Source: a virus. Taken from it: 31,870 bases of DNA. The stretch spans positions 1-31,870 of the IMG/VR virus record IMGVR_UViG_3300034374_000763. One strand, written 5' to 3'. The translations under genes and the position numbers were made by a program. How positions within the stretch are numbered: the stretch's first letter is position 1; each line of letters opens with the position of its first letter. Below the pieces are notes generated by a model. The model worked only from the letters and a program-made list of their open reading frames with translations. It had not been told where the DNA came from and made no database searches. Shown piece by piece: positions 131-31,870 of this stretch.

Positions 131-240
131 ACATCTGATATATCTCCATAAGTAACTGTGTTAATGTATTCATCTGCTATAAGCAAATCCTCAACTAAAT
201 TTGTTACTACATAGAATCCTCTTGCTGCTGTGTTACTCAT
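1..240 (-). CDS. Tail-completion-like protein, N-terminal part (gene split by the window ends)
   Basis: This is the first 80 codons of a 156-residue protein; the frame stays open to base 1 and continues at 31740 down to 31510. The start ATG (240-238) overlaps the TGA (239-237) of the upstream frameshifted chaperone frame as ATGA, which supports this start through translational coupling. The residues begin MSNTAARGFYVV. It lies between the chaperone-like gene and an HK97-gp10-like gene, where siphoviruses usually carry small head-tail or tail completion proteins. I recognise no domain, so the role rests on position only. An internal Met (31770) would give a shorter 86-residue form, but the coupled start is better placed. 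Confidence 0.8.
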   Translation of the reverse strand, partial: MSNTAARGFYVVTNLVEDLLIADEYINTVTYGDISDVDLNKQTIFPLGHLIVNSITSSEQTLTFNLSILAMDIVNVEKNA

Positions 241-973
241 TTGAATTTATTTTTTATTTGTTTTGCCTCTATGTCTGATTTTTCTTTCAAAAATGTTAAT
301 GCGTATAATGCTGTGTGTACGTTCAGTTTAGTGATATCTTCATATTTTGTAATATCTCCTTGAGCGAGCTGGTAAATACATTGATACCATCCATATTTTG
401 TGTTGAATTGAGATATTGCTGTAAAGCTCTCTCCTCCTTGTGTTCCAAATAGTTCATCATAGTTGTTGACAAGTCGATTCCTAAATGATAAAAAAAAAGT
501 ACAGCACCTAAGGCAGCATCAAGTGGCATATCTTTCATAACACCAGTATCTATTGCTTTATACTCCTCTATTGAATATCTTTTGCCGTGTCTTAGTTTAA
601 CAGGTCTATACAATACTTCCATTGCTTTATCCATCATATCCCAATCGGATAAGTAGTTATCTAAATCTACATACTCCCCAAAAGAAATATCCTCTAAATT
701 AGGAATGAAGCCATACTCTTTACCATCTAAGATAAAATGCTTTTTAAGAGGAGGTTGCTCATTAAACATATCGACAAGAATACTGCAAATAGCATTTACA
801 TCCGATAGCTTTAATTTCATTACTTTGTCTAGGCTAATACCACAGAATATCTCAATCATTTTTATAGATAAGAATTTATCATCTGTACTATCCTTTTGTA
901 TTTTTAAATACTTCTGATATTGTCCAAGAGTAATCTCAGAAAGTTTATCAGGTACTGTAATATCTATCTTCAT
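237..973 (-). CDS. Frameshifted tail assembly chaperone (gpGT-like), -1 shift at T9
   Basis: The 216-codon frame contains the run CTT TTT TTT TAT (T9 at 498-490 on the minus strand) near codons 159-162. In the -1 frame after this run there are no stops for 84 codons, down to TGA at 239-237, giving a fusion of about 245 residues. The extension (for example KYGWYQCIYQLAQGDIT) reads as protein-like sequence and ends with an ATGA overlap onto the next start codon, so it is under translational coupling. Lambda-type siphoviruses make a gpG and a rarer gpGT by exactly this type of -1 slip. Slippage itself is inferred; the open frame and slippery run are seen directly. Confidence 0.7.
323..973 (-). 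CDS. Tail assembly chaperone-like protein (gpG-like)
   Basis: A 216-residue protein that is the first gene after the terminase-side terminator and the head of the tail transcription unit. Features such as YGFIPNLEDISFGEYVDLD (about residues 87-105) and LDAALGAVLFFY (151-162) look like a family I associate with tail chaperone genes in Flavobacteriia phages; this is recall, not a search. It would bind the tape measure protein during tail assembly. The start ATG is 3 nt from a conserved bipartite promoter-like motif. Unlike lambda, where G-T sits next to the tape measure, here the tape measure is nine genes downstream across the genome join. Confidence 0.65.
   Translation of the reverse strand: MKIDITVPDKLSEITLGQYQKYLKIQKDSTDDKFLSIKMIEIFCGISLDKVMKLKLSDVNAICSILVDMFNEQPPLKKHFILDGKEYGFIPNLEDISFGEYVDLDNYLSDWDMMDKAMEVLYRPVKLRHGKRYSIEEYKAIDTGVMKDMPLDAALGAVLFFYHLGIDLSTTMMNYLEHKEERALQQYLNSTQNMDGINVFTSSLKEILQNMKISLN
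490..498 (-). other. T9 slippery run, likely programmed -1 frameshift site
   Basis: Nine A on the plus strand give T9 in the mRNA sense, read as CTT TTT TTT TAT. A -1 slip keeps tRNA-Phe pairing on TTT perfectly. It is the only point needed to join the 216-codon frame to the 84-codon stop-free -1 frame. I did not identify a convincing downstream stimulatory hairpin by eye. Confidence 0.65.
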
Positions 974-1246: not shown

Positions 1247-2407
1247 TTATCTAATAGCATATTTTCCATAGTTAGGTCTTGATAGCACATTATATGTAGC
1301 ATACCTTAGACTATCAATAGTATGGTCATTTCCTTGTTTAGGCTTATTAAGCAGTTTTCCTGTCCTATCTTCCTCCCACTTGTAGTTACGCATCTCTCTT
1401 ATTAGATTGTCGCTCTGTGGGTCTAAAACTAGCTTGTATCGCTTTAATAAATCTATTCCTGCTCTAATACTGTCCTGTCCTTTTATTGTAGGTCTAACCA
1501 TATTGCCCATTCTCCTAAGCTCTTCTATTAATCTTGGCTCTGCTGAATCTATGTAGATGTATTCGTTTATCGTTTGTTGCTTTAAGAAGTTATGCAAATC
1601 AACAGTAGTCATCATAGTTCTATACAGAAGTTCTTTGCAATAAAGTGTGTAATCCTTTTTATAAACCTCAACTAAGCTACTTGGGTCTACAGAATATCCT
1701 ATGTCCATACCATATCCTACAAGCTCTGCATCTTCTGGTCTTTTGCCTTCTGTGAAAGTAAATATAGTTGCTTTGCTTATTCCTCTAAGTCCTAGTCCAT
1801 AGATTTGCCAGTACTGTTCGTCTGTGTATTGTAGCCTTTCAATTTCTTCTATAAGAAGAGGGTCTAAGAATGGGTTGTCTTTGTATGTGGTAACGTAGAA
1901 GTCACAATCCTCTCTATCTAATACTTTGTCATATATAAAGTGGAACTCATCTGATGGGTTAAAGTCTATTATAATCCTACCCTCTGTTCTAAATAGTAAT
2001 TGATTCCATTGCTCGTATGTTAGCTCGTTAGCCTCATTACAAAACAGCAAATCCCTTTTTCTACCTCTTACCTTTTGTGGGAAGTCTAAAGAAATGAACT
2101 CTACTAGGTTACCAAATAACCTGTACTCTGAATTTGTTTTGTTATGCTCTTCTTCTCTGTAAAGATTGTGCTTCTTTAATATCTCTAAGAAGTCACGCAT
2201 TACAGTAGCCCTAAGAGCTGGGAATGTATTTCTACATATTGTAATTACTTTATCTGTGTTGAGGTTGCAATACTCAAAGATAATCCAAAGAAGTATGTTG
2301 TAAGTCTTTCCACTTCTTGTTCCACCCTGATGCGCTATTATTTTCTTATTAGATTTTTGTAGCGAATGGAATACCTTATTAGTCCTTATCTTCAAACTTG
2401 TTGACAA
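1247..2407 (-). CDS. terL: Terminase large subunit
   Basis: ATP-driven DNA packaging motor and nuclease, 386 residues. Walker A is GGTRSGKT (28-35). A Walker B-like LLFCNEA (about 120-126) carries Asn before the catalytic Glu, where Asp is common. IIIDFNPS (about 146-153) fits the coupling motif, and the C-terminal part has a nuclease-type acidic segment MDIGYSVDPSS. Length is slightly short but in the normal range for terminase-3-type proteins. It overlaps the small subunit gene by 29 nt. It lies at the end of the early/middle block, ahead of the terminator, and not at the head of a packaging-capsid operon as in many siphoviruses. Confidence 0.95.
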   Translation of the reverse strand: MSTSLKIRTNKVFHSLQKSNKKIIAHQGGTRSGKTYNILLWIIFEYCNLNTDKVITICRNTFPALRATVMRDFLEILKKHNLYREEEHNKTNSEYRLFGNLVEFISLDFPQKVRGRKRDLLFCNEANELTYEQWNQLLFRTEGRIIIDFNPSDEFHFIYDKVLDREDCDFYVTTYKDNPFLDPLLIEEIERLQYTDEQYWQIYGLGLRGISKATIFTFTEGKRPEDAELVGYGMDIGYSVDPSSLVEVYKKDYTLYCKELLYRTMMTTVDLHNFLKQQTINEYIYIDSAEPRLIEELRRMGNMVRPTIKGQDSIRAGIDLLKRYKLVLDPQSDNLIREMRNYKWEEDRTGKLLNKPKQGNDHTIDSLRYATYNVLSRPNYGKYAIR

Positions 2408-2723
2408 TCTCTATCTCTATCTTATTAGGCATACCATCTGCTCCTGTTATTTCTTGTCGCTCTACATACCCTCTATACTTTCCTTTGGTTTTTAGGTAGA
2501 ATAGAATCTCATTTGTTTTGCCACTCTTAATATTCTCTAACAGTTTAGATTCTGCCAAGTCTATTAATCCTTCTTGGATTTCTTCTACTGCTTGCGCAAA
2601 GTCCTCATCACTATCCCTCCAGTTATAATATGTTTTTCTAGCTATCCCTGCTGCCAAGCAAGAGTCCTGTACGTTACCTAGATTGTTTGCAAAGACTTCT
2701 AAAAACTTTTCTTTATCCCTCAT
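2379..2723 (-). CDS. terS: Terminase small subunit
   Basis: A 114-residue protein with an N-terminal helix-turn-helix region (about residues 10-35: NLGNVQDSCLAAGIARKTYY, then NWRDSD) typical of small terminases that bind the packaging site. A helical middle and an acidic C-terminus (NKFEDKD) would contact the large subunit. It precedes and overlaps terL by 29 nt, the usual pairing. Start chosen at MRDKEKF; the upstream stretch is only 24 nt from the methyltransferase stop. Confidence 0.85.
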   Translation of the reverse strand: MRDKEKFLEVFANNLGNVQDSCLAAGIARKTYYNWRDSDEDFAQAVEEIQEGLIDLAESKLLENIKSGKTNEILFYLKTKGKYRGYVERQEITGADGMPNKIEIEIVNKFEDKD

Positions 2724-2747
2724 TTGTGTGTAATTTGTGTATTTTAT

Positions 2748-3371
2748 CTAAAACATTCTTATTTGAGATTGATGCTCTTTTATTCTTTTCATAGCTGCTT
2801 CATAGTAATCCTTATCTAATTCGCAAGCTGTTAAATCAAATCCTAAATTATGACAAGCAATTGCTATTGAACCACTACCTAAATGCGTGTCTAATATTTT
2901 GTCTCCCTCTTTAGCATAGTTTATTAATAGCCATTCATATAATGAAATAGGTTTTTGGCAAGGATGTATATCAAAATCTTTTTTATTTAATTCGTTATAT
3001 CTATCTGTATTACTCCAATCATATCTATAAAAATCTACTTTTTTAAGCCTACTATAACTTGCAATTTCACATTTGCTCATATTAGGATGTTTCACATCTT
3101 TATACCAAACAATAGCACCGCCTTTATCATTAAAACAATTATAATAGTTAGCACCCCAAACTATTTGCTCTTTGCTTACCCTTTGTAATTCTTTAAAATA
3201 ATCTATGTTTGGTGTTTTATTATTCCAATCATACTCCCACTTTTGTTTTTTATCTCCTACACCTTGACTAAAGTTTCCTATACCATAAGGTGGGTCAACT
3301 ATTGCAAGGTCAAAGTACTTGTCAGGATACCTAGCCATTAGCTCCATATTATCCTCATTAGTTATCTGCAC
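2748..3371 (-). CDS. Orphan DNA methyltransferase (DPPY, beta-type order)
   Basis: A 207-residue S-adenosylmethionine-dependent amino-methyltransferase (N6-adenine or N4-cytosine). The catalytic motif VDPPYG is at 25-30 and the AdoMet-binding motif is C-terminal (DTHLGSGS, 161-168; usual form is FxGxG), an order typical of beta-class enzymes. HPCQKPISLYEWLL (136-149) matches the conserved segment before motif I. The start is GTG at 3371; the next ATG (residue 9, MELMARYP) would shorten it slightly. No endonuclease partner is adjacent, so it probably protects phage DNA from host restriction or marks it. The recognition sequence cannot be read from the sequence. Confidence 0.9.
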   Translation of the reverse strand: MQITNEDNMELMARYPDKYFDLAIVDPPYGIGNFSQGVGDKKQKWEYDWNNKTPNIDYFKELQRVSKEQIVWGANYYNCFNDKGGAIVWYKDVKHPNMSKCEIASYSRLKKVDFYRYDWSNTDRYNELNKKDFDIHPCQKPISLYEWLLINYAKEGDKILDTHLGSGSIAIACHNLGFDLTACELDKDYYEAAMKRIKEHQSQIRMF

Positions 3372-15750: not shown

Positions 15751-16247
15751 AGAACCCAGCCATTAAAATTAGCCTCATACGAAGGACTTATATCATCATT
15801 TGAATTAGAAGTATATTCAGGGAATAACGCTTGATTAAAAGCCATATAATCAATAAATCTGCGTGTGTAATACTCAGCTATATCTAATTCTTTTTGTACT
15901 AAGTAATCAACCTCTTCTTTGCTTACAGTTTCTGCTGTTTCGCTAACGTGCTTATATATCCCTCCATTCTTGATAGTATATGCTGCAAAAGGCAAGTAAT
16001 CTACCATAGCATAGTGTATAAGCATAGGTTGTACATAAGTGTTTACTAGTGTTAGATAGTTTCCTGTTAAATTATTAGCTAGGATGTCATTGCTAATCTT
16101 GTTGTATAAATCAGAGCCTAGATAGTTTCTAACGTGAATCTCTTGCGCTATCTTAATGAACTGAATAAACTTATCAGTATCTACATTACCATCTAAGATG
16201 CTATTTCTTACTAAATCTGTTCTTGTTATAAATAGTGCTGTAGCCAT
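15747..16247 (-). CDS. Head-tail adaptor-like protein (DUF6712 type)
   Basis: 166 residues, mostly helical: starts MATALFITRTDLVRNSI, with KFIQFIKIAQEIHVRNYLGS (27-46) and a C-terminal RRFIDYMAF region. Size, helical content and its position directly after the portal fit the head completion/adaptor proteins that extend the portal ring to the tail. Start overlaps the portal stop by 1 nt. Family name from memory. Confidence 0.65.
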   Translation of the reverse strand: MATALFITRTDLVRNSILDGNVDTDKFIQFIKIAQEIHVRNYLGSDLYNKISNDILANNLTGNYLTLVNTYVQPMLIHYAMVDYLPFAAYTIKNGGIYKHVSETAETVSKEEVDYLVQKELDIAEYYTRRFIDYMAFNQALFPEYTSNSNDDISPSYEANFNGWVL

Positions 16248-18028
16248 TATCCTCTAGGTTTTAAAAATCCTCTATTTTTCATATCTTTTGGTCTTTTAGC
16301 TACTTTAGGATTATTTACCTCAGGAGTAAAGCCTTCCTTCTTTGCTTTATTTACACTTATCTCAGCATTAGGATTAGTAGCATCAGGATTAACATCTTTT
16401 GCCATATAGGTTTTTCTAATCCAAAAGTGATGACAATCTCCTCCTCCTTTATATAGCCAAATATCATAAGTAGCAGCTCCATTAGGTCCCCATCCTGCAT
16501 TAACTGCTCTTTGACTCATAGCTTGAATGTCCTCTTTTCTATAAATTTTCTTAGCAGCTACCATCTTTTTACAAAACTCTCTGCTATTATCTGAGGTTGT
16601 TAGTGGTGCATATTGGTATCTTACTTTGAATCTTAGATTATTTTCTTCTCCATCTTGCACACTCTTTGCATTTGGTCTAGCAATTCCTGTAGAAGCTAAC
16701 CCTATCATTTTGTCTAAAGCCTCTTCTTGGTCGTAATCTACTTTTCTTTCATCAACAAGTACCCAGTTTTCTAAATCTTCTTCTTCTCCAAATTCATCTA
16801 ACAAGTCTGCAAGCCCCTCAGTTGCCTCAGGTTGTTGCTTACTCATCTTAACACCAGTTTCTTCTTCTCTTGTTTCTTGGTCTGTTACATTTTCTAAATC
16901 TGTAAACTCTAAAGGCTGTAACGTTTTGAAGTATAAATTAAGTGAAATACTATTATAAGCTAAGATTTGGTCAAAAGCATCTATCAATAAATTCTGAAAA
17001 GGTCTGATAACTGTGTTATCCATCAAAATAGAGGCTGTTTTAAGCTCTTCTGCGTTGTTTCCTAGCCCTGTGTTATCCTTGATGCCTAAAAGCATAGGAG
17101 AAACGATTCTATGGCTTACTAGGATTTTTCTTGAGCTTTCATCAGATAGGAATTGATATTGATTATGTGCATCAGATAACTGTACTGGCTCTATATTAGC
17201 CTGAGCATCTGCATTATCATTAAAGCTAAGGATAAACTTGCCTGCATTAGATGTGCCAGAAAACTTTTCATAGATTTTATTTTCTATTAATCTTCTTTGC
17301 TCTTCATTTGGCACTCCGTTATTGAAGTTGATTAACATAGATGGAGCTAGACCATTCATTATGTTGTTTAAGTGATAGTTGCTAATTTCTTCTTCTAGCT
17401 CACTATATTGCAAACCTCCTTGATAATCTACAGGCGAGTAGTAATAGAATCCTGCTCTGTAAGGCTTAACTACATATATCTCTATTGATTCTTTGCTATA
17501 ACCAAAGCAAGGTATTCTTTTTGGCTCATCACTTGTTTTAATATTAGCCCAGTCCTTAAAATAATAATAGGCTTCTATATCTCCTTCTTCATTACATTTT
17601 TCTGCTCTTAATGTTTCAATAGGAAAATGCTCTACTTGTGCTATTTTAGTTCTATCCTTAGAATAAATAACTTGCATTGCACAGCTTCCCATCAATTTTA
17701 AGTCATATACTAGTTTTCTAACGCAATCTTTTTTAAGCAATGTTATAGCTTGTGCATATTCATCTGGTTTTTTGCTAGAATCAGTAGCATCTAATCCTTT
17801 TCCATAAATCATTTCAGACAAACCATTGATAGCAGCGTTATTTGTAGGAGAGCCATTGTATCTATCTATCAAATATTGAAAGTAATTGTTATCCTCTCCA
17901 TAAGACACCCATTCTTTGCCTCTTACTTCTTTTATTTTAGGAGAAGTATATGTGCTGAGGTTTACCAGATGTACCTCAGATTTAGGTGCTGATTTTGGAG
18001 CAGTCCTGTAATTATTTACTTTTCTCAT
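16247..18028 (-). CDS. Portal protein with C-terminal extra domain
   Basis: 593 residues. Residues about 1-400 fit a dodecameric portal, through which DNA enters and leaves: EVHLVNLSTYTSPKIKEV, GEDNNYFQYLIDRYNGSPT, then PMLLGIKDNTGLGNNAEELK (about 308-327), a strongly portal-like segment. An acidic linker (EGLADLLDEFGEEEDLENW) leads to a domain (about 425-593) with GIARPNAKSVQDG, REFCKKMVAAKKIYRKEDI and YKGGGDCHHFWIRKTYM. I associate this extra domain with protease or head proteins of other Bacteroidetes phages, so it may be a fusion. It is encoded downstream of the capsid genes. Stop and start overlap the neighbours by 1-4 nt. Confidence 0.8.
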   Translation of the reverse strand: MRKVNNYRTAPKSAPKSEVHLVNLSTYTSPKIKEVRGKEWVSYGEDNNYFQYLIDRYNGSPTNNAAINGLSEMIYGKGLDATDSSKKPDEYAQAITLLKKDCVRKLVYDLKLMGSCAMQVIYSKDRTKIAQVEHFPIETLRAEKCNEEGDIEAYYYFKDWANIKTSDEPKRIPCFGYSKESIEIYVVKPYRAGFYYYSPVDYQGGLQYSELEEEISNYHLNNIMNGLAPSMLINFNNGVPNEEQRRLIENKIYEKFSGTSNAGKFILSFNDNADAQANIEPVQLSDAHNQYQFLSDESSRKILVSHRIVSPMLLGIKDNTGLGNNAEELKTASILMDNTVIRPFQNLLIDAFDQILAYNSISLNLYFKTLQPLEFTDLENVTDQETREEETGVKMSKQQPEATEGLADLLDEFGEEEDLENWVLVDERKVDYDQEEALDKMIGLASTGIARPNAKSVQDGEENNLRFKVRYQYAPLTTSDNSREFCKKMVAAKKIYRKEDIQAMSQRAVNAGWGPNGAATYDIWLYKGGGDCHHFWIRKTYMAKDVNPDATNPNAEISVNKAKKEGFTPEVNNPKVAKRPKDMKNRGFLKPRG

Positions 18029-24796: not shown

Positions 24797-25599
24797 TTTG
24801 TAGCTATATGATATTTAAAATATTCTTCTCCTAGATTTACAAATAACTCTTTATCTCCATCAAACAGTCTATAACTGTTATGCAAAGTGTATTCATCTAT
24901 TTTATCTCCATTTATATATATAACGCTATTTTCTTTTGTTTTATAAAACTTATTATTTGTTTTTATATTTGAAACCCTATAATTCAAGTCGTGATTAAAC
25001 TTTTCTAAAGGAGGCTTGTCTAATACTGTTATGTTCTTATCTTGATACAAGTCATAAAAAAACCATTCTAAGTACTTTAAATTCTTCGCATAGTCATCAA
25101 TGCTATTTATTTCATTTAAGTTGCTTAGAAGCCTTTTATTGGCTAAAAAAATAGATGTGTAATAAGACTTGTCATCTGCATATTTAAAAAATACTCCATC
25201 TGTATCATATTCAAATAGATTATCTATGCTTCCTTTAATATGCCAATCATAGTTTAATACTAAGCACTTACTAGACTTTACTGCTTCTAATCCTTTTTTA
25301 ATTAGTTCTATAATAGCATACGCTGCAAAGGTTGTAACAGGATTCCAAACTTTATAGCCATTTACTATTTTTTCTGTTATGTGGTTTAGATTGTACTGGC
25401 TGTATTGCTCGGGTCTTAGAATAGGATTCTCGTAATTGTAAACATAAGCATCAGCAAGCTCATAGGCTTCTTTATTTATGAAGTGGTCTGTTACTATAAC
25501 TCTAAAACCTTGCTTCTTTAAAGCTGCTATGCAGTCAACAAGCATTTTGCTAGTCTTTTCATCTTCACTATGAGCTAATACTATACACTCTTTAACCAT
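24790..25599 (-). CDS. Putative glycosyltransferase B
   Basis: 269 residues. Alternating strand-helix start (MVKECIVLAHSEDEKTSKML, then LKKQGFRVIVTDHF), then FAAYAIIELIKKGLEAVKSS and KCLVLNYDWHIKGSIDNLF (about 111-129), in which NYD stands where GT-A glycosyltransferases have the DxD metal-site motif. I recall similar ORFs annotated as glycosyltransferase-like in marine viruses. Overlaps glycosyltransferase A by 19 nt. Its likely targets are the tail proteins of the same operon. Confidence moderate: no perfect DxD. Confidence 0.55.
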   Translation of the reverse strand: MVKECIVLAHSEDEKTSKMLVDCIAALKKQGFRVIVTDHFINKEAYELADAYVYNYENPILRPEQYSQYNLNHITEKIVNGYKVWNPVTTFAAYAIIELIKKGLEAVKSSKCLVLNYDWHIKGSIDNLFEYDTDGVFFKYADDKSYYTSIFLANKRLLSNLNEINSIDDYAKNLKYLEWFFYDLYQDKNITVLDKPPLEKFNHDLNYRVSNIKTNNKFYKTKENSVIYINGDKIDEYTLHNSYRLFDGDKELFVNLGEEYFKYHIATKC

Positions 25600-26405
25600 T
25601 TCTTAGCTTGATTGTAAAATTTGTTGTTAGGGAACTTTTCAGGCTCTAAGCCATTCATATTTCTTTTATCCATATAGCTATCACAACAGTAGTGTGCTAT
25701 GTGATGCTCATCTCTTAGTTTGTTTATATTAGGATAGTAGCAGTTTTTGCCATCAATCATTTTTATCTTATTATTATGACAAGCTACATTAAGTCCATAC
25801 ATTGCTTGCCACCAGCTATGATTGTTGCCTTTTTGTTCAAAACATATTCTAATACTTATTTCTATGATTTCATCTATTATAGCTTTCATTGTATCTACTC
25901 TTGCTATAACATTAAAGCCTCCATTCATATATTTAAAGTCGTTATGCTTCAAATACTTTCTTATAACATAAAAATTCTCGCTATTTCTAGTAGAGGTTTT
26001 TAAATGCCAGTCCTCATAAAAAGCATCTGCTATAACTTCATCATAACTTGGCTCTACCCCATCATATTTTTTTAAGTGTACTAAATCTGAATCTATTATT
26101 TCTACAATCTCATTATCAGGTAAGTCCTCTATGATTTGCTTTGCTGCTGTAAAAACATTCGTGGGAATTAGCCAATCCTTATCTAAACTATATAAATCCA
26201 AAATAGAGTCTACCATCTTGTAAGGTAGTTTTAGATTCCAATCTACATCTTCTTTTATTGATTCATTTATATAGTTCCTTTTGACTATAGGAATAATAGC
26301 TTTTTGCATAGCCTCTTTGCCATAGACTTCAAAGTGTTGGTACTGAAAAAAATCTATTTGCTTTTTAAACCAGTCGTTTGCTACAGCAACAGGAATAGTA
26401 ATCAT
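25581..26405 (-). CDS. Putative glycosyltransferase A (GT-A-like, DSD motif)
   Basis: 274 residues. LPYKMVDSILDLYSLDKDWL (60-79), then VEIIDSDLVHLKKYDG (101-116) with DSD at 105-107 where a DxD motif should bind a nucleotide-sugar metal, YMNGGFNVIARVDTM (159-173), NVACHNNKIKMIDG, and HHIAHYCCDSYMD. The motif order (xPY..V before the DxD-like site, GGFN after) reminds me of hydroxyproline O-arabinosyl/Ser-galactosyl transferases of eukaryotes, and of putative transferases in marine phages, but this is memory only. Overlaps the oxygenase gene by 4 nt (ATGA). Confidence 0.6.
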   Translation of the reverse strand: MITIPVAVANDWFKKQIDFFQYQHFEVYGKEAMQKAIIPIVKRNYINESIKEDVDWNLKLPYKMVDSILDLYSLDKDWLIPTNVFTAAKQIIEDLPDNEIVEIIDSDLVHLKKYDGVEPSYDEVIADAFYEDWHLKTSTRNSENFYVIRKYLKHNDFKYMNGGFNVIARVDTMKAIIDEIIEISIRICFEQKGNNHSWWQAMYGLNVACHNNKIKMIDGKNCYYPNINKLRDEHHIAHYCCDSYMDKRNMNGLEPEKFPNNKFYNQAKKWLKSV

Positions 26406-31007: not shown

Positions 31008-31510
31008 TATGTTGTAAAATCTAATAAGTCGTCTAAATCTAAATTGAACCTGTCTATAAGGTCTACTGGTAATCTTTCAAAGGCTTTTTCAAAAGGCTTA
31101 GTAAAAAACAAAGAAGGCTTAATACCTTTTTCTTTAATAGACCTTGCTAAAACAAATCCTATGCTTTTGTAGTTTCCTTTCTTGTATCTTCCTTTTTCAT
31201 CTCTTAGCCTAATATTTCTAGCCTTTGCCCAGTTAGCTAAAGCCTTTGTAGGTGGCTGCTTGTTTGAGTAGCTAAATATTGTATTGTATTTTTTTTTAGT
31301 ACCTGAAACACCTTGGTCTACATAAGCACCATAAGGAAGCATATAAAACTCCAAAGAAAAACTATTAGCATCAACATTTAAGTCATATCCTAAAGAGCCA
31401 TACAAATCACTAGATACATTTTTATTTTGCTTAGATAAATTAGTTCTAGCTTGCTGAATAACATACTTAGCAAACCTATTCAACTCCTCTTTGGTGTTTC
31501 TTAATTGCAT
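31007..31510 (-). CDS. HK97-gp10-like tail completion protein
   Basis: 167 residues. AKYVIQQARTNLSKQNKNVS then LEFYMLPYGAYVDQGVSGTK (54-73) with a YGAYVDQG core that resembles HK97-gp10-like/neck proteins (YAxxxExG-type), and NYKSIGFVLARSIKEKGIKP with PFEKAFERLP at the end. These proteins join heads and tails. Overlaps both neighbours by 1 nt. Confidence 0.75.
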   Translation of the reverse strand: MQLRNTKEELNRFAKYVIQQARTNLSKQNKNVSSDLYGSLGYDLNVDANSFSLEFYMLPYGAYVDQGVSGTKKKYNTIFSYSNKQPPTKALANWAKARNIRLRDEKGRYKKGNYKSIGFVLARSIKEKGIKPSLFFTKPFEKAFERLPVDLIDRFNLDLDDLLDFTT

Positions 31511-31870
31511 TAGCAGACAGATTGGTCGTTATTAATCATTATATCAAATGTTGCTGCCCATCCTGCAAGCAAGTTCTCAAATCTATCTGTAAAAGGCTCA
31601 AAGGATACATCCCCTATAATTTGATAACCTTCTCTATATAAGCTACCTATTCTTATTTTTTGTAGTAGTTTGTTTAGAACCTTGAATTGAGCATTAAGAA
31701 CATCTTGCTCGTTTGTGTTCCCTCTAAACCAATTTGTTGTTGCGTTCTTTTCTACATTGACTATATCCATAGCTAAGATGCTAAGATTGAATGTAAGAGT
31801 TTGTTCGCTTGAAGTAATTGAGTTAACTATTAAATGCCCCAGAGGAAATATAGTTTGCTTATTTAAATCA
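31510..31870 (-). CDS. Tail-completion-like protein, main part (gene split by the window ends)
   Basis: C-terminal part of the 156-residue gene that begins at 240 and runs through the join. The frame stays open to the window end. Residues include NLSILAMDIVNVEKNATTNW and GYQIIGDVSFEPFTDRFENL, ending NNDQSVC. Size and place next to the HK97-gp10-like gene fit a tail terminator or neck protein. The base difference between the two repeat copies falls on an Asn codon (AAT/AAC), so is silent. Confidence 0.8.
   Translation of the reverse strand, partial: DLNKQTIFPLGHLIVNSITSSEQTLTFNLSILAMDIVNVEKNATTNWFRGNTNEQDVLNAQFKVLNKLLQKIRIGSLYREGYQIIGDVSFEPFTDRFENLLAGWAATFDIMINNDQSVC
31741..31870. repeat. Right copy of 130-bp terminal direct repeat
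   Basis: Same sequence as 1-130 except g instead of a at 31744. See the left copy. Confidence 0.95.

Follow-up and report, generated by a model that had tools for sequence, protein, structure and literature searches.

A conserved frame change at a T9 run in a putative tail assembly chaperone gene of Flavobacteria siphophages, probably made by RNA polymerase slippage

The window, a stretch of 31,870 nucleotides of viral DNA, carries on its minus strand a gene with two predicted products, which, on the best reading, belongs to a lineage of Flavobacteria siphophages and codes for a tail assembly chaperone made in two forms. Ordinary expression would give a short form of 216 aa. On part of the transcripts, RNA polymerase would slip at a run of at least nine Ts and add one U (U10), and ordinary translation of the U10 transcript would then enter the other frame and yield a long form of 245 aa. 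As in lambda G/GT, the assembly of the tail tube on the tape measure protein would be guided by a set proportion of the two forms. For this whole explanation, a two-product tail chaperone with polymerase slippage at the T-run, a probability of about 0.6 is estimated. The frame change, the selection on both products and the homology of the domains emerge from the comparison of homologues; from these we infer a probable chaperone function, the polymerase rather than the ribosome as the likely agent, and the proposed ratio.

The short form is encoded in frame 0 at 973-323 (minus strand) and consists of an N-terminal domain (residues 1-161) followed by a 55-residue frame-0 tail. The T9 run (U9 in the mRNA) is located at 498-490 and is read in the frame of the gene as CTT (499-497) TTT TTT TAT, with the in-frame heptamer T_TTT_TTT at 497-491. 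The -1 frame extension, which constitutes the C-terminal domain of the 245-aa long form, covers 84 codons at 491-240 (minus strand) and ends with a TGA at 239-237 that overlaps the ATG of the next gene (240-238) as ATGA. The earlier note had described the run, the open -1 frame of 84 codons, its coupling to the next gene and the product sizes of 216 aa and 245 aa, all of which proved right. One additional nucleotide in the run (U10) leads to the same 245-aa protein as a ribosomal -1 shift, while U8 or U11 transcripts would meet a stop after 163-164 aa. The extension of the window contains neither ATG nor GTG, and the part of the -1 frame that is open ahead of it also lacks ATG. As had been pointed out before, gene callers miss the extension, since it has no start codon of its own; the annotation of the Nonlabens phage P12024S has it as an ORF of its own, labelled "hypothetical".

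From 490 to 323 (minus strand) the frame-0 tail and the -1 extension overlap, and both are conserved. Random synonymous recoding of the 0-frame protein left the -1 frame open over the overlap in about 0.9% of cases, and the reverse recoding, with the -1 protein fixed, left frame 0 open in 0.6%; the openness of the -1 frame over the overlap is thus more than chance. The T9 run by itself is not rare in this AT-rich genome, where six A/T runs of at least 9 were counted against 3.7 expected; it is significant because it is conserved, not because it is rare. Another such run, an A9 at 31289-31297 on the coding (minus) strand, encodes KKK in a 167-aa gene (phrog_29822); KTK or KMK occurs at this place in some relatives, which makes a conserved slippage site improbable.

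Homologues were searched for with the N-terminal domain, the extension and a downstream DNA motif, which resulted in several hundred loci. The search patterns demanded no T-run at the slip site, and the Phe codons were sought in both spellings. The junction set obtained comprised 300 distinct homologous junctions, equal to 202 clusters at 90% identity. T_TTT_TTT was found in frame in all 300 junctions, and at each of the 168 loci where the C-terminal domain was located it lay in the -1 frame with T_TTT_TTT in phase. Both Phe codons of the slip site were TTT in 87 of 87 distinct close homologues, compared with a share of TTC of 12-59% at five other conserved Phe columns of the same proteins. 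The extension was 49-75% identical to that of the window in a diverse set and mostly 81-88 codons long. The earlier note had expected a conserved -1 extension and slippery run in homologues and had named stops in their -1 frame as evidence against its claim; the former was borne out by these counts and the latter was not encountered. Judged by sequence comparison, there is practically no doubt that the frame change is programmed.

Two explanations do without a programmed frame change. According to the first, the indel-prone T9 reflects phase variation, a sequencing error or decay, and the true form of the gene is a single ORF, in one of its states. Homopolymers are indeed error-prone and single-ORF relatives exist, but the -1 position of the C-terminal domain at 168 of 168 loci, the absence of any in-frame fusion from the family of the window, the same T9 and -1 frame in the isolate phages P12024S and P12024L, and the selection on both frames of the overlap make this explanation very improbable. 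According to the second, there are two separate proteins, with translation of the -1 extension started independently, through re-initiation or coupling, and no fusion. Such a start is implied by the annotation of P12024S_39 in the Nonlabens phage as an ORF of its own from an internal ATG. Among the 87 homologues, however, no ATG was found among the first 30 codons of the extension or in the open -1 region before it, and GTG in at most two; this also answers the possibility, raised by the earlier note, of a separately started extension gene. With the T-run invariant and the extension present as a C-terminal domain in single-ORF relatives, the production of two unfused proteins is hardly credible.

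These single-ORF relatives, which are distant ones, comprise 43 loci of one type (L111-type) and the locus L113, in which the chaperone is encoded in one uninterrupted ORF. A profile of the extension matches their C-terminus (hhalign E 1.2e-13 and 6e-10), a profile of the N-terminal domain matches L113 (E 8e-10), and both domains are joined at the same point as in the family of the window. In L113 a short gene at 1818-2390 (190 aa, resembling the N-terminal domain alone) lies directly upstream of a long gene at 2377-3135 (252 aa). The 190-aa gene matched the N-domain profile with E 3.5e-5, and the BLASTP comparison of the short with the long protein was weaker (E 0.07). The L113 pair is a two-gene alternative to the frame change, which supports the view that a short form and a long form are both required; no further relatives of the pair were found. 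An arrangement of a short plus a long gene has been reported for the chaperones of T4-like phages (PMC10885494). As in the family of the window, T4-like chaperones have a short form and a long form made of the short form plus an extension, and L113 has such a tandem pair; the family of the window differs from them in using a frame change, and no similarity to T4 gp26/gp51 was detected when these were compared as single sequences.

The drop in synonymous rate that the earlier note had proposed as a check was observed when the analysis was run over the 165-nt (55-codon) overlap, where the third-position difference of the fused frame fell from 0.427 upstream to 0.204. Where the amino acid was the same, codon identity rose from 0.60 to 0.82 in the overlap in both frames. 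Synonymous recoding of the -1 frame predicted 3.5 stops per sequence in the frame-0 tail, compared with none observed in 45 diverse sequences, and the frame-0 identity was 0.63 as observed versus 0.35 after recoding. As far as comparative data of this kind go, both frames of the overlap are under selection, and the lack of stops together with a frame-0 identity above that of recoded sequences indicates that the frame-0 tail is a real product. The tail after the slip is thus itself conserved, forming a 55-codon dual-coding overlap that was absent from the earlier note. It is only 25 codons long in Nonlabens P12024S and 16 codons in L163, and a tree of the N-terminal domain gave no verdict on whether the short tail of these two is ancestral or a loss. 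Because the -1 domain is common to the single-ORF relatives, the frame-0 tail was probably added later, by overprinting.

A ribosomal -1 shift needs T_TTT_TTT, that is, seven Ts. Over the 300 distinct junctions the T-run had a length of 9 (261 junctions), 10 (38 junctions) or 12 (one junction) and never of 7 or 8. A flanking T was missing from five junctions in four clusters, namely L275 (AAT before the run), L352 (AGT before the run) and L336, L360 and L405 (CTG after the run), and all five were longer on the other side, so that the run stayed at 9 or more. With independently varying flanks, the chance of this compensation is p 5e-5 to 2e-4 depending on the clustering, a value that rests on four independent events only. 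The flanking residues of these junctions are N or S ahead of the run or S behind it, and such residues do not require the compensation. A pattern scan of IMG/VR for T7 or T8 forms of one sub-family revealed none, and a motif scan blind to run length returned at least 113 sampled sites with a run of 9 or more, plus one off-target match. That the run never falls below nine, the compensation and the lack of T7/T8 forms together favour polymerase slippage over a ribosomal shift. The earlier note had assumed a translational -1 frameshift; the change of frame into a real -1 extension was upheld, but not its level, as a T-run of at least 9 exceeds the ribosomal need and points to RNA polymerase.

In the ribosomal alternative, which has lambda G/GT as its model, the same two-product chaperone would arise when the P- and A-site tRNA-Phe slip in tandem by -1 on U_UUU_UUU. 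The T_TTT_TTT present in frame in every homologue is a canonical site for this, conforming to X_XXY_YYZ, and ribosomal frameshifting is the documented mechanism of most phage tail chaperones, which counts against the polymerase. The additional flanking Ts are mostly explicable by hydrophobic residues in both frames (V/L/I/F before the run, L/F after it). The argument from run length assumes that the flanks vary independently and has four independent exceptions as its basis. Against the ribosome stand the run that never shrinks to 7 or 8 and the compensated losses of flanking Ts, and further the codon choice: T_TTT_TTC, mostly synonymous in both frames, is never used at the slip site, though TTC makes up 26% of the upstream Phe codons (UUC may slip less well). 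A downstream stimulator, which is usual but not obligatory for ribosomal -1 shifts, was not found; RNAalifold on 41 sequences predicted 0 conserved pairs (pseudoknots being outside the model), and single-sequence RNA folds were no better than those of shuffled sequences. This lack of a stimulator is weak evidence against the ribosome. On balance, the ribosomal alternative is considered a serious but lesser candidate.

For polymerase slippage, a homopolymer of at least 9 A/T is present within the coding sequence, and the run length itself appears to be selected, as indicated by the four independent events. In a substantial fraction of bacterial genomes, A/T runs are selected against from a length of 9 (PMC1088944), and runs of nine As or Ts slip in bacteria (PMC5009743). 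The E. coli polymerase favours T runs and insertions and can slip from seven Ts (PMC6260861), so nine is not an absolute requirement. Citrobacter tssM is an example of slippage setting a ratio of products that a phage-tail-like machine requires (PMC4256274). Transcriptional slippage is accordingly the mechanism we would favour over ribosomal -1 frameshifting, and both may contribute. The more specific proposition, that in a large Flavobacteria phage lineage the short:long ratio of the chaperone is set not on the ribosome but by the polymerase, slipping at a T-run kept by selection at nine or more, with a short form whose overprinted tail has 165 nt in common with the C-terminal domain of the long form, is given slightly better than even odds.

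Like lambda G/GT and HK97 gp13/gp14, the window gene has a slippery heptamer, belongs to a siphophage with a tape measure protein and would yield, from a single gene, a short product and, in minor amount, a long one with a -1 extension. It differs from lambda G/GT, to which no sequence homology was detected, in its overlap of 165 nt (lambda G and T as annotated overlap by 19 nt), in its position just after the terminase instead of directly before the tape measure gene, and in the level of the frame change, which is ribosomal in lambda and for which polymerase slippage is favoured here. With Shigella mxiE (T9) and spa13, Thermus dnaX (A9), Citrobacter tssM (A11) and IS elements it shares a coding homopolymer of at least 9 A/T and two products from one gene; these are bacterial or IS genes, whereas the gene of the window, with predicted slippage, is a tail gene of a phage and has a dual-coding overlap of 55 codons. 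The closest cultured counterparts are ORFs 38/39 (PHROG 32199) of the Nonlabens phages P12024S and P12024L, with the identical T9, a -1 extension and the same synteny; unlike in the window, their frame-0 tail has 25 codons and is not conserved, and the two ORFs are annotated as unrelated. In P12024S (L114), P12024S_38 and P12024S_39 at 15995-16689 constitute one frame-changed gene that is annotated as two hypothetical proteins.

A tail assembly chaperone, the role assigned in the earlier note, is still the best reading of the protein and is held to be quite likely. It is suggested by the synteny next to TerL, the presence of a tape measure protein, the architecture of a short and a long form and a weak match to the fold of HK97 gp13. 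As in G/GT systems, one gene is predicted to give a short and a frame-changed long form with a common N-terminus, and its tail module includes a probable tape measure protein (519 aa, 24665-23106); the usual, though not obligatory, position directly upstream of the tape measure gene is not occupied, as the gene sits after the terminase. AlphaFold2 gave a pLDDT of 76 for the 216-aa protein of the window, with the N-terminal domain confident and the tail residues 169-216 mostly below 50, and of 77 for the single-ORF family. The top re-aligned PDB chain for the single-ORF model was the HK97 tail assembly chaperone 2ob9, a weak match (Z 3.4, 74 residues, rmsd 3.9). A fold search of the PDB with the window model gave no match at E < 0.001, and VIA values of Z <= 3.3 fell on unrelated chains. 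Pfam and NCBIfam contained no relevant family for the chaperone gene, and a sequence search of the PDB with profiles retrieved nothing. A weak match of the gene to phrog_166 ("tail protein") was obtained, while lambda G/T and T4 gp26/51 fall in other PHROGs. Homology to T4 gp26/gp51 was rejected, as a comparison of profile against single sequence revealed no similarity.

The frame change could also be real and the protein a different tail or neck assembly factor, not a chaperone of the G/GT type, a possibility that cuts across the question of polymerase or ribosome. The missing chaperone match in Pfam and NCBIfam, the separation from the tape measure gene and the lack of a match to T4 gp26/gp51 are in line with this, but the short/long architecture, the HK97 gp13 fold match of relatives, the short and long gene pair of L113 and the weak phrog_166 match speak against it, and we regard it as unlikely. 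Since the gene does not adjoin the tape measure gene and the fold match is weak, it is described as working like a G/GT chaperone and is not filed as a proven member.

The ends of the window, 1-130 and 31741-31870, are identical in 129 of 130 bases; this terminal overlap shows that the record is circular with about 31.74 kb, though catalogued as an ordinary contig. ATGA-coupled to the chaperone gene is phrog_30964 (156 aa, minus strand), the next gene, which is split over the circular junction into 1-240 (first 80 codons) and 31510-31869, and it is intact in a relative (L002). Upstream of the chaperone gene lies the terminase large subunit gene (TerL; 1247-2407, minus strand; phrog_2, E 3.8e-44), with a 38-aa ORF in between. 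The order on the circle is TerS, TerL, the 38-aa ORF, the chaperone, the 156-aa gene (phrog_30964) and the 167-aa gene (phrog_29822), followed by genes of 304, 1034, 194, 274 and 269 aa and then the 519-aa probable tape measure protein (24665-23106, minus strand), for which weak matches to tape-measure PHROGs, a helical character and a hydrophobic core were found. The earlier note had placed the chaperone gene far from the tape measure. The two do not adjoin, with seven genes between them, but the tape measure gene lies about 7.3 kb downstream on the circle, and the distance of about 22 kb is an artefact of linearisation.

A frame change in tail chaperone genes is textbook conserved recoding, for which the reviews consulted describe a ribosomal mechanism; no report of a polymerase-level case in a tail assembly chaperone was found in the open-access literature. 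If the polymerase sets the ratio, at least three routes have led to the two-form design, namely the ribosome, the polymerase and separate genes. The chaperone family is unnamed in Pfam and NCBIfam, and its long form is missing from annotations. Homologues sit on contigs that binning assigns to Flavobacteriaceae, Winogradskyella and Bacteroidetes, and the relatives in culture are the Nonlabens phages P12024S and P12024L; the hosts are probably marine Flavobacteria/Flavobacteriaceae, and the family is abundant in marine viromes. The two cultured phages make the polymerase question testable at one RNA site. Between the tail genes of the window, the gene at 25581-26405 has a weak Pfam match to a hydroxyproline O-arabinosyltransferase family (E 2.6e-4, below the cut-off).
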